Positions 3,592-29,237 of a DNA stretch of 34,313 bases are shown here, in pieces. The position numbers and the translations under genes are program-made. Position 1 is the first letter of the stretch. Every line of letters starts with the position of its first letter. Below the pieces are notes generated by a model. The model made no database searches and was not told the DNA's origin. It worked only from the letters and a program-made list of their open reading frames with translations. This DNA comes from Nitrosomonas sp. (GTDB taxonomy: Bacteria > Pseudomonadota > Gammaproteobacteria > Burkholderiales > Nitrosomonadaceae). The stretch is taken from positions 1-34,313 of the forward strand of contig JAJFJI010000365.1 of NCBI GenBank assembly GCA_021774205.1, read 5' to 3'.

Positions 3592-3770
3592 GTTAAAGAA
3601 GAGTGGTGCTATATTAACCCGTAAATTAGATAAATTCACGCATCAACATCTTTGCAGGAAAATTTTTGAAAAAAATGTCGCGTAATGAAGAATGCGGGCG
3701 CTAAGGGAAACTGATTGGCCAAATGATTAGCCCAAAATCTGTCATCTTCATTAAGCTTTTGGAATATTGC

Positions 3771-3806
3771 TAGTACTCTGTCAAGTTAGTATTGATGGGT
3801 TCAGCG
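3771..3806 (+). repeat. Dispersed repeat, copy b (reference copy)
   Basis: The copy starts TAGTACTCTGTCAAG and ends TATTGATGGGTTCAGCG. Related copies in this window lie at 2171-2207 (+), 4072 back to about 4034 (-), 5838-5859 (+, right part only, 20 of 22 bases shared) and 6388 back to about 6352 (-). All are intergenic or sit at gene ends. I do not recognise the family; short length and dispersal suggest a MITE-like or REP-like element. Confidence 0.6.
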
Positions 3807-4033
3807 TTACGCAGATGATCCAATCCTGCTTTGTGGCCTTTGTACAGGGCTGGCCATTTCCAGCGAGGGCTGTCTAACCGTCAACCACTTCCCGAATCCA
3901 ATATGTAATTATTCAGTACATCGCAGTGACTGTTCAGATTGCTCCTAAAACTCGTCAGTTCAAGGCGCAAAATATGAGTTTACATGTGACAATGATCATT
4001 TTGTAACGCCGAAATGGCGGATTTGAGGGGTAA

Positions 4034-4072
4034 GCTGAATAGTTGCGTCAATATTAGCATGACGGAGTATTA
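4034..4072 (-). repeat. Dispersed repeat, copy c, overlapping the HDOD stop codon
   Basis: Read on the minus strand, this copy begins TAATACTCCGTCATGCTAA. Its first three bases, TAA, are the stop codon of the HDOD-GAF gene (4070-4072). The copy after dsbA has the same arrangement. Confidence 0.55.
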
Positions 4073-5629
4073 GCGAAAAGCAGTTATTACATGTTCTTTT
4101 AATTGCTTGATAAGCGTTTTCTCATCTGATGAAATACCTTCTGGCGCTTCCAATTTTCGGTCAGCGTAAAGTAAGCCAATTGGTTTATTATTCTTAATCA
4201 TTGGCAGCATGATGAAACTGAGCGCATCGGGCAATAAAGCTTGATGCCATGCTGGAATAAGATTGTGTATTTTTACGTCTGCAGCATTGGAAATAAATAA
4301 ATCCACCCCTTTTTCAATCACCAGATGAAATAAGTCTTGAGATGAAGTTACGGGAAAAAAGAAAGCGCTCTGGCGTGTGGCATGGTCTTCTCCCAAAGAA
4401 CTGTACGCTTGAAATTGGTTGGTTTGTGTATTTTTCAAACAAACTGTCGCAAATCGAAAACCGAGACCGTAGTATATGGTTTTCAGGAATAATGTAATTA
4501 AATTTTTATTATTAAAATCATGGCTGGCAATCAATCTTGTGATATCTTGATTGCCAGCCATGAGTAGTTTTTTCGAATTAAACGGTTTGCCACTTGAATG
4601 GGTTTCAGCAACTTGTGACCCACTTGTGTCGTCATGTTTGACAAGCAGTTCTTTGGAATCTACATTTGTTTTGCTATTTGGATCAATTTGATATTTAAGA
4701 TTTGCGCTTTCGGTTAATACCTGCGTATGCTTTTCTGCATTGATAAATAATTGTTCCAAGCTGGTTTCATCCAGATGCAATGATTTGCCAAATCGAGCTA
4801 TTAGTGCCTCATTAGTTTGGTCTTTTTTGTCCTGATCGGTTGCCTCTAGTATCAGCGGTACAACCGCTTCACTAAAAATAACAGCTTGCCACATCCATTC
4901 TTGCCGGGTTTTAGGGGGCGTTAAGGCTCTGGGAGAAAAAATTTTCATGGCCTGAATAATTGCATCGGGAATTTGCCATTTTTCTAGGGCAATTTCAGTC
5001 AACATATCAAAGCTGTAACCAAGTTTTAATTTCGATGCTTGCGTTGGGGTTTGGATATCCAATTTTACCAGCACCATAATATCTTCATATAATTTTTCGT
5101 CATAAGCCGCTACTAACAAACGGCCTATGTTTTTAAACAATGCTGCAATCGCTACTTCTTCGGCATCTTTGAAATGTATGCGCTTGGCGAGTTCACGTCC
5201 TATCACACTAGCAGTCAGTGCGCGCGCCAGCTCATTGCGAACGCACTGCGCCTTTTTGCCTGGCATGTTATCGACTAAAATTATTGCCAGTGCGCAAGTT
5301 TTAACCGTGTTCAGTCCGAGTAAATGAATCGCTTTTGAAATATTTGTGACTTCTTTCCCAGAGACAGAGCGAAAATTAACTGAATTTGATAAACGCAAAA
5401 TTTTCTGAGTCAATGAAACATCAGATAGTACAAACTGCGCGAGCTCTTGTATCGACCCATTGCTCGATGATGATAGCTTTACTAGGCGTGATACAGTGCT
5501 GCCAAAAGTTGGGAGATCAGAATTCTTGCATATCGCTTCTATCAAATTATCTGTCATAGCAATTGTGTTATCACTGCTGGGCGCAGTGATATCAGAAGCG
5601 TTGGTAATAACCTGTGAGTTATTTTGCAC
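4070..5629 (-). CDS. HDOD domain plus GAF domain signalling protein
   Basis: The 519-residue protein has an N-terminal HDOD domain (about 40-245; LPTFGSTVSRL, LSDVSLTQKILRLSNS and HLLGLNTVKT are typical) and a C-terminal GAF-like domain (about 365-515; ends IGLLYADR then DEKTLIKQL). HDOD domains resemble HD phosphohydrolases but usually lack the metal-binding residues and act as signalling or scaffolding modules; GAF domains bind small ligands. A low-complexity linker (about 300-350) joins them. The start used is GTG at 5629 with a weak ribosome site; ATG at 5557 (MTDNLIEAICKN) is a reasonable alternative. The stop codon lies inside a repeat copy. The specific role is unknown. Confidence 0.88.
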   Translation of the reverse strand: MQNNSQVITNASDITAPSSDNTIAMTDNLIEAICKNSDLPTFGSTVSRLVKLSSSSNGSIQELAQFVLSDVSLTQKILRLSNSVNFRSVSGKEVTNISKAIHLLGLNTVKTCALAIILVDNMPGKKAQCVRNELARALTASVIGRELAKRIHFKDAEEVAIAALFKNIGRLLVAAYDEKLYEDIMVLVKLDIQTPTQASKLKLGYSFDMLTEIALEKWQIPDAIIQAMKIFSPRALTPPKTRQEWMWQAVIFSEAVVPLILEATDQDKKDQTNEALIARFGKSLHLDETSLEQLFINAEKHTQVLTESANLKYQIDPNSKTNVDSKELLVKHDDTSGSQVAETHSSGKPFNSKKLLMAGNQDITRLIASHDFNNKNLITLFLKTIYYGLGFRFATVCLKNTQTNQFQAYSSLGEDHATRQSAFFFPVTSSQDLFHLVIEKGVDLFISNAADVKIHNLIPAWHQALLPDALSFIMLPMIKNNKPIGLLYADRKLEAPEGISSDEKTLIKQLKEHVITAFR

Positions 5630-22055: not shown

Positions 22056-22236
22056 GTACCAATTTAGTACTAATCAACTAGAAAAAAACCTAGTACATGT
22101 CAACTAATTTAAGAATCTATTGCCCTCCCACAATGAGCGATAGGTATACCGTGCAGCCAAGCCTACTAGACCGGGCACAGACGCTTAGAGCGTCGGCGGA
22201 TTGGCGCTATGTTTCATTATTTTTTCCTTTTGTTTG

Positions 22237-22282
22237 TTCGCCCGTCCTTCACCGTTTGCGCGGAGTTGGGCGGGATTTTTTT
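22237..22282 (+). terminator. Terminator or attenuator in the rightward leader
   Basis: CGCCC (22239-22243) pairs with GGGCG (22268-22272), extended by G-U pairs, enclosing a small CCG/CGG stem, and is followed by ATTTTTTT (22275-22282). Its place after the Cro-like gene corresponds to tR1 in lambda, so rightward genes may depend on read-through or antitermination. Confidence 0.5.
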
Positions 22283-22343
22283 GGGTAAAGTGAAAAAAAT
22301 AGAAACCATATTGGTGGAAGCGCTTGGGTTACTCACAAGCTAT

Positions 22344-22448
22344 TTACTTGCAAGGCTTCCTTGGTTTGCGCCGTTTGTGGTCCTTGACCGGTACAGTCTT
22401 AGGGCCACGAGGCGGCGTTTTACAAGGTTCACATGGTTTATTAGCCAT
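22344..22448 (-). CDS. Possible 34-aa Pro/Cys/Lys-rich peptide, antisense to the leader
   Basis: On the minus strand an ATG at 22448 follows AAGGAATAATC and opens a frame starting MANKPCEPCKTPPRGPKTVP and ending RKPCK. Three Cys and many Lys and Pro give it a peptide-like composition that random frames rarely show. It would be transcribed against PR. No homologue is known to me. Confidence 0.3.
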   Translation of the reverse strand: MANKPCEPCKTPPRGPKTVPVKDHKRRKPRKPCK

Positions 22449-22613
22449 GATTATTCCTTAATAAGTCAGCAGGTTGAGCCTGCTTCTCTGAGGGTCCCGA
22501 TGACCTTCGCCTTCTATCAAAGGTTTTTTGGGATCAGAAAAACTTACAAGGAATTGCCAAGCGCCTCCATCAATATGATTTCGGCTGAATTATGAAACAC
22601 ATTAGTCTTTTTT

Positions 22614-28385: not shown

Positions 28386-28655
28386 TTGAATTTAACAAAG
28401 ATTGAGCTAAAAACAAAAGACGGCAAGAAAATCAAGCTTACTGCTGATGAAGCGAGAGAGCTTTATAACCAGTTGCATGAGTTGTTTGGCGCGAAATACA
28501 TACCGATTGCGCCAATTGTTATTGCTAAGCCTTATGTACCGTCGCCGCTGCCTTATTGGCTTGGTTCTACAACGTGCGGTATAGGAAGCGGAGTGTCTGG
28601 TCAGATGCTAGGAAATTCAGAACATCTGGATAGTAGTGAGAAAATTATGCGATAG
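28386..28655 (+). CDS. Hypothetical protein, 89 aa
   Basis: The N-terminus (NLTKIELKTKDGKKIKLTAD and EARELYNQLHELFG) is a short strand pair and helix found in many small phage proteins; the rest is Pro/Gly/Ser-rich and probably disordered. The only upstream start is TTG at 28386, 5 bp after the previous stop. The region following it is the structured RNA. Confidence 0.62.
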   Translation: MNLTKIELKTKDGKKIKLTADEARELYNQLHELFGAKYIPIAPIVIAKPYVPSPLPYWLGSTTCGIGSGVSGQMLGNSEHLDSSEKIMR

Positions 28656-28667
28656 AGCGCCAAGAAG

Positions 28668-29045
28668 CATGGGTATTGGTAGGTTTCGACAACAGGAATT
28701 TTGCAGATTCGTCTGCGTCGGAAAGTGCGTTGCTGCAAACAACGCTGCCTACATACACAGTACCCATGACTTGTTGGTGAGTGTGCAGAATGATTTCTAA
28801 CAAAGAAGCGGCGGCGAAATTGAATTTGAGACTATTACCAAGTATGGGTAGGTATACATACTGTCACAGGGATCGTGCTCAGTCCTTAAAGCTGGTTTTA
28901 ACTCCAGCCCGCTTCTTTGTTGGTGTATCGCAATGTAATGAATTGCTAGAAAGCGGGAGGTTATCGCTATAGCCAGTTTGCGCAGATTGTCTATAGCGTC
29001 CGAACATGGAATATAACCAAGCCGGGTTCATCTCCGGCCACCAAC
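28668..29045 (+). ncRNA. Candidate large structured phage RNA, two domains
   Basis: Domain I (28668-28768) is closed by CATGGGTA/TACCCATG and GTAGG(T)/(G)CCTAC, then branches into one arm (28685-28690 with 28717-28722, capped by GCAGA-TTCG-TCTGC) and a second hairpin GCGTTG/CAACGC. Domain II (28773-29045) is closed by GTTGGTG/CACCAAC and contains a 15-bp helix (28797-28811 with 28909-28923, one G-U), a bulged 9-bp helix (28825-28833 with 28881-28890), and hairpins at 28841-28862, 28891-28908, 28930-28946, 28965-28998 and 29021-29038. All non-Watson-Crick pairs are G-U when read on the plus strand, which supports that strand. No known class is recognised. Confidence 0.68.
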
Positions 29046-29063
29046 TTAACTAATGGAGAGTTT

Positions 29064-29237
29064 GTGAAACACAAAAGAGGTAGACCAAAGAATCGTAGAG
29101 CTGGTTGTTTGATGTGCAAACCGCACAAGATGAATGGATACAATCCAAACCGTATAGGCTCTATTTCAAAATACGGCGGAATGCGAGGGGCAAGACTGAA
29201 TTGCTATGCAGATAATGATTTACGTGTATTGGAGTGA
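29064..29237 (+). CDS. Small basic phage protein, 57 aa
   Basis: From GTG 29064 with GGAG upstream the frame reads MKHKRGRPKNRRAGCLMCKP and HKMNGYNPNRIGSISKYGGM, a basic protein with CxxC. This style of short phage protein is familiar from lambdoid prophages, without assigned function. Its stop overlaps the next start as TGATG. Confidence 0.7.
   Translation: MKHKRGRPKNRRAGCLMCKPHKMNGYNPNRIGSISKYGGMRGARLNCYADNDLRVLE

Follow-up and report, generated by a model that had tools for sequence, protein, structure and literature searches.

The window (the whole 34,313-nt stretch of Nitrosomonas sp. DNA analysed here, to which all positions refer) very probably carries a copy of an apparently undescribed family of structured non-coding phage RNAs whose function is not established. 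Its members combine a long hairpin (P1) with a four-armed, tRNA-like part (P2) that comes after it. The phages P1, D6 and HK620, all laboratory classics, share this covarying RNA with more than 10% of the complete E. coli genomes sequenced, and yet most of the records examined leave it unannotated. The best explanation as a whole joins this family identity to a tRNA-mimic mechanism, and we assign the combination a probability of roughly 0.5.

The likely layout of the window region is one P1+P2 unit at 28797-29045, preceded by the hairpin of a second, upstream unit at 28656-28781, all on the plus strand. The upstream unit is a branched hairpin (stem 28668-28678/28758-28768, 11 bp with one G-U among them; outer pairing 28658-28663/28774-28779) followed by TTGTTGGTGA. 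Its hairpin, 28658-28779, has a folding z of -4.9, and 57% of its bases pair at p>0.9, where shuffles give 19%. The P1 hairpin spans 28797-28923, with a 15-bp stem (28797-28811/28909-28923) around a branched insert, and it ends in GTT running into P2, which is a feature of family membership. P2 (28919-29045) comprises an acceptor-like stem (28919-28925/29039-29045), a D-arm-like hairpin of 5 bp (28930-28946; GCAAT-GTAATGA-ATTGC), a middle arm (28959-29018) and a T-arm-like hairpin (29021-29038; GCCGG-GTTCATCT-CCGGC) that abuts the acceptor strand. Folded by itself without constraint, 28919-29045 takes exactly these four arms at minimum energy, acceptor-like stem included. Two small plus-strand genes provide context only: an 89-aa ORF upstream (28386-28655) with a coding-like codon score, for which no relative was found in viral contigs, and a 57-aa gene downstream (KHKRGRPKNRRAGCLMCKPHKMNGY, 29064-29237), whose protein has 24 relatives in viral contigs. 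Several of these relatives lie directly behind tRNA-like sequences (L008, L013, L015), as 29064-29237 does in the window.

An earlier note, made from the sequence alone, had proposed a single fold of about 380 nt with at least 13 helices. All the helices it quoted were located in the window, including the perfect 13-bp inverted repeat 28799-28811/28909-28921, extendable to 15 bp, and the pairing 28965-28972/28991-28998; the count itself is uninformative, since many helices form in any 380-nt sequence. Dinucleotide shuffling of the region produces a perfect 13-bp inverted repeat in 0.03% of cases. Against such shuffles the folding z is -3.8 for 28660-29050 and -4.0 for 28656-29046, and the plus strand is preferred over the minus strand (minus z = -2.4). 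Fold energy is not decisive alone, because other loci in the window, some of them in genes, fold equally well: in a dense local scan z-scores were equally low elsewhere, including within the terminase gene, and 22210-22600, ~4370-4680 and 3750-4112 ranked above 28656-29046. As separate observations, the stretch 22200-22606, which directly follows a cro-like gene, has a much stronger fold (z -7.5, with local values as low as -10); it contains an ORF, has no Rfam match, and could be a mobile inverted-repeat element or another RNA. At 4371-4677, within the minus-strand ORF 4070-5629, both strands also fold strongly (local z -5 to -7), and a 17-bp perfect inverted repeat is present.

The claim of one fold failed: in the region, the hairpin of a second unit precedes a P1 hairpin and its tRNA-like part. 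The 7-bp stem that was said to close it, 28773-28779/29039-29045, held in part: the sequence match is real, but 29039-29045 has a second perfect 7-bp partner, 28919-28925, and this is the one kept in homologues. Whole-region energies are nearly equal for the P2 arrangement (-131.3 kcal/mol), the proposed closing stem (-130.8 kcal/mol) and the free optimum (-133.1 kcal/mol). P2 was chosen because the homologues decide, and we regard 28919-28925 as the most likely acceptor partner.

Searching the whole records behind fetched loci yielded a nearly identical stretch of 22 nt (AGTACCCATGACTTGTTGGTGA versus AGTATTCATGACTTGTTGGTGA) in two host-genus prophages, G472 and G032, in both cases ~5 kb upstream of a related terminase. 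The regions fetched from them (L143 and L144, respectively) hold the whole layout of the window, in the order hairpin, TTGTTGGTGA, long helix, TTGTTGGTG, GCCGG..CCGGC hairpin and CACCAAC. Their long helices carry compensatory changes relative to the window: the P1 stem reads AACAAGGAAAGGGGC/GCCTCTTTCCTTGTT in both prophages (and other sequences in phages), and the closing stem of the upstream unit changes from GGG/CCC to GAA/TTC. A model built from the window alone (R1) gives 31.9 bits (E 5e-6 in 40 kb) to the G472 counterpart of the upstream unit, a significant link, and 24.2 bits to the one in G032. Under strict filters R1 found nothing in 85 genomes of the genus and 399 of the order, although true homologues are there; applied without filters to the fetched regions, it recovered them. 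By blastn the window stretch had no match in phages, plasmids, E. coli or genomes of the order. An 11-nt pattern scanned over the genus was too short to be informative, scans with GGTTTCGACAACAGGAA and with GGTTTCGAC..GTCGGAAA returned chance matches only, and protein neighbours used as bait led to no RNA homologue; in L028, the closest phage, small genes occupy the place that the RNA has in the window. Two weak matches to a further model, R2 (L092 and L093), were rejected as lying inside ordinary genes. A lone type I-E-like CRISPR repeat (TGTTCCCCACGCCCGTGGGGATGAACCG) was also observed in a host-genus prophage (L179, reverse strand 1237), between a cro-like gene and an RNA unit.

With the L143 copy as query, blastn (E up to 1) matched 166 phage and 64 plasmid records, the top matches covering its 3' part. 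A member from an N4-like phage has matches (E up to 0.01) in 176 phage records, and the HK620 member in 678 of 5,426 E. coli genomes. Carriers include phages P1, D6 and HK620, N4-like phages and E. coli prophages, the last in at least those 678 genomes. The units are mostly unannotated in the listed phage records and E. coli genomes; one of the 40 listed E. coli genomes has an annotated feature under the HK620-member match. Members share one architecture, a P1 hairpin of ~13-17 bp (for example AACAGGTAAGAGCA...TGCTCTTTCCGTT, with a variable insert) and then P2, whose arms follow the order acceptor-like stem, D-arm-like hairpin, variable region and T-arm-like hairpin. In sequence, P2 reads GTTGTGGTG, AAT, a D-arm-like GCGC-AGGCTGAT-GCGC, then a variable 30-180 nt, a T-arm-like GCCGG-AGATCAGCA-CCGGC and CACCACAAC. 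The P1 inserts of some members were seen to hold tRNA T-arm-like pieces (GGTTCAATTCC and GGGTTCGAATCCC; L171 1671-1800, L162 2430-2500), which look like truncated tRNAs in the loop. No description of the P1+P2 RNA was found in the titles and abstracts searched; subscription journals were mostly outside this search, and a prior description cannot be excluded.

Across an alignment of P2 from 18 members, 96% of cells are paired and both partners differ in 13 of the 18 pairs. Not one of 500 shuffles attained any of five P2 measures, and sliding the alignment lowered pairing to 29-54%. Kinship among the sequences can inflate the shuffle test; the covariation is upheld despite this caveat because the slid-alignment control and the independent pair changes agree. 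The latter comprise an A-U pair in the acceptor of phage P1 and, in the D-arm, a U-A pair in D6 and an A-U pair in EC.P3; a Pseudomonas phage member has its acceptor rewritten. The T-arm-like helix is paired in every cell of the 18 members, with compensatory changes in two pairs, the pairs of the D-arm-like stem covary across the family, and the P1 hairpin is compensated between copies. As to trimming, alignment A7 lacks one base each from L166 and L168, and A8 contains the forms before the trimming of A9. The latter omits one unpaired linker base of the window and of G441, for register, and one outer D-stem pair of L175, with L165 and L174 re-trimmed for register. On two of the checks that the earlier note proposed, homologues show compensatory changes and keep the helices, and no Rfam family matches the region, the only hit being a chance hairpin-ribozyme match (E 1.2, with E up to 10 admitted). 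Its claim of a structured plus-strand RNA of no known class held, and its suggestion of a smaller, separate class beside GOLLD and ROOL is supported, the class being widespread in phages and not private to this prophage.

Whether the window copy itself belongs was assessed with a model (R3) built from 11 phage and plasmid copies only, without any host-genus sequence. R3 scores 67.8 bits on G472/L143 (E 9e-16 in 251 kb), 62.7 bits on G032/L144 (E 2e-14 in 251 kb) and 42.8 bits on a further host-genus prophage, G441. On the window its match is 28906-29048, with 16.8 bits and E values of 1.4e-4 for 1.1 kb and 0.03 for 251 kb. In the 1.1 kb tested, this match outscores the next by 10.8 bits, and it has acceptor and T-arm in register. 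A whole-genome R3 search misses the window copy, whose score is not significant genome-wide; membership therefore rests on the chain from the window to G472/L143 to the phages, together with the shared architecture. The D-arm-like hairpin of the window lies 3-5 nt after the acceptor strand, as the family expects; its sequence has diverged, and its loop resembles GTGATGA of Pseudomonas phage 15b (L175). We consider it very likely that the window holds a very diverged family member with a second P1-type hairpin in front.

Units lie among or beside tRNA genes in phages P1 and D6, an N4-like phage, a plasmid and phiEt88, with four R3 matches near the tRNA genes of phage P1. The HK620 unit falls in the interval from the annotated qut site to the tQ terminator; in CUS-3, ENT39118 and phiEt88 the unit has Q on one side and the lysis genes on the other. 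Several members are away from tRNA genes, and the range of sites covers tandems among tRNAs, the neighbourhood of a repressor gene, capsid regions and intergenic positions without a common downstream gene. This gene context is shown, as are sequence, structure, covariation and distribution. The lambda late promoter is constitutive, and without Q action its leader stops short of the lysis genes; Q-to-lysis copies could therefore be made in lysogens. In the mechanism we propose, the P1+P2 RNA would be excised from a long phage transcript, like the adjoining phage tRNAs, and once freed would act in trans as a tRNA mimic. Its stacked acceptor and T-arm would occupy a tRNA-recognising host protein and would not serve translation, the target most likely being a tRNA-directed nuclease or defence enzyme. 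Transcription, processing, action in trans and the target are all inferred, with no data on expression or binding behind them. Acting in trans and serving as a decoy are guesses that remain possible, and the mechanism, which is our best functional guess, is only weakly supported and rather more doubtful than probable. We would also lean slightly against the bolder reading of a new, widespread class of trans-acting phage RNA, a tRNA mimic with a strand-exchanging P1, deployed by phages as unrelated as the lambdoid, P1-like, N4-like and Ackermannviridae groups against a host tRNA-recognising enzyme or defence. Placement in tRNA arrays and between Q and lysis makes expression and function testable in standard strains.

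The main rival, which remains possible, is a cis-acting leader switch, in which the shared GTTG strand pairs with either the 5' CAAC (P1) or the 3' CAAC (P2), and the choice would control transcription or translation of downstream phage genes. In its favor, both CAAC-type partners are retained in most members, the two arrangements are ~2 kcal/mol apart in the window, and the qut-to-tQ position in HK620 and the Q-to-lysis positions in CUS-3, ENT39118 and phiEt88 would suit a leader. However, units also occur in tRNA tandems, near a repressor, in capsid regions and in intergenic sites with no common downstream gene, and the competition between P1 and P2 would be needed over only 3-6 nt. Less likely, the unit is part of a phage-encoded permuted tmRNA, such as an acceptor piece or processing domain. 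Tag-like frames lie upstream of units in N4-like phage (ANDDVILMAA), Ackermannviridae (ANDNTFLAVA), HK620 (ANEEMYLAVA), Sa179lw (ANDDVVLMAA) and both P1 and D6 (ANDDLMMVAA), at L157 1314, L158 1318, L161 2302, L176 1617, L162 1873 and L168 1645, and Rfam permuted tmRNA models match near three units below the gathering score (31, 24 and 22 bits). Those matches do not cover the unit, however, no tag-like frame was found at the window, G472, G032 or G441, the units are repeated in phage P1 and lack CCA, and neither ARAGORN nor Rfam calls a tmRNA in the window. The option of reading the window itself as a tmRNA (GGTTTCGAC with the T-arm-like end) was rejected. Separately, the tag-like frames may themselves mark unannotated phage tmRNAs, those of P1 and HK620 included. 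Very unlikely is a DNA-level module kept as a recombination joint between mosaic phages: highly conserved blocks do flank variable inserts, and the CUS-3 annotators marked 'boundary sequences' beside the unit, but compensatory stem changes are expected of RNA or single-stranded DNA and not of homology blocks. A pair of small protein genes at 28636-28800 and 28790-28972, their fold arising by chance, is all but excluded: two chained ORFs spanning at least 330 nt occur in just 1% of shuffles and a weak GGTGAG precedes the ATG at 28790, but codon usage in ORFs 28636-28800 and 28781/28790-28972 is off-frame-like, as it is in every frame of the region (one real gene scores similarly), searches of Pfam, PHROGs, phages, viral contigs and 200 genomes turned up no relatives, and it is the helices that homologues keep.

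The preferred reading, a phage RNA family with a tRNA-mimic P2, can be set against several known systems. Like tRNA (RF00005), the family has the arm order acceptor-like, D-arm-like, middle and T-arm-like, the last joined directly to the acceptor strand, and its units are often found within phage tRNA arrays. Unlike tRNA, it has an acceptor of 7-9 bp, a middle region of 30-180 nt without a clear anticodon arm, a non-canonical T-loop, no encoded CCA and a long P1 hairpin sharing a P2 strand. The window P2 follows suit, with no encoded CCA (it ends in CACCAACTTA), a non-canonical T-loop (GTTCATCT, position 58 not A) and no clear anticodon arm, and neither the Rfam model nor ARAGORN finds a tRNA there. 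Like tmRNA and permuted tmRNA (RF00023, RF01850, RF04321), it has tRNA-like ends flanking a long insert, and phage tmRNA-tag-like frames lie close to several members; unlike them, the unit has no tag or resume codon and no tmRNA match, and copies occur in tandem. GOLLD and ROOL are structured non-coding RNAs of unclear function (PMC12286853). Both occur in phages, as do P1+P2 RNAs, which are likewise structured and non-coding but much shorter, with a tRNA-like core and no Rfam match; the GOLLD and ROOL models do not match in the region. The HK620 and CUS-3 units occupy the Q-to-lysis interval corresponding to that of the lambda 6S, or late leader, RNA, although lambda 6S RNA is not known to hold a P1+P2 unit. 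RNAs C and D of T4 (species 1 and 2) are stable RNAs without a known role that sit in a phage tRNA cluster. They may be likened to the present family by their location, and the P1+P2 RNA offers a concrete handle on unexplained RNAs in phage tRNA clusters.
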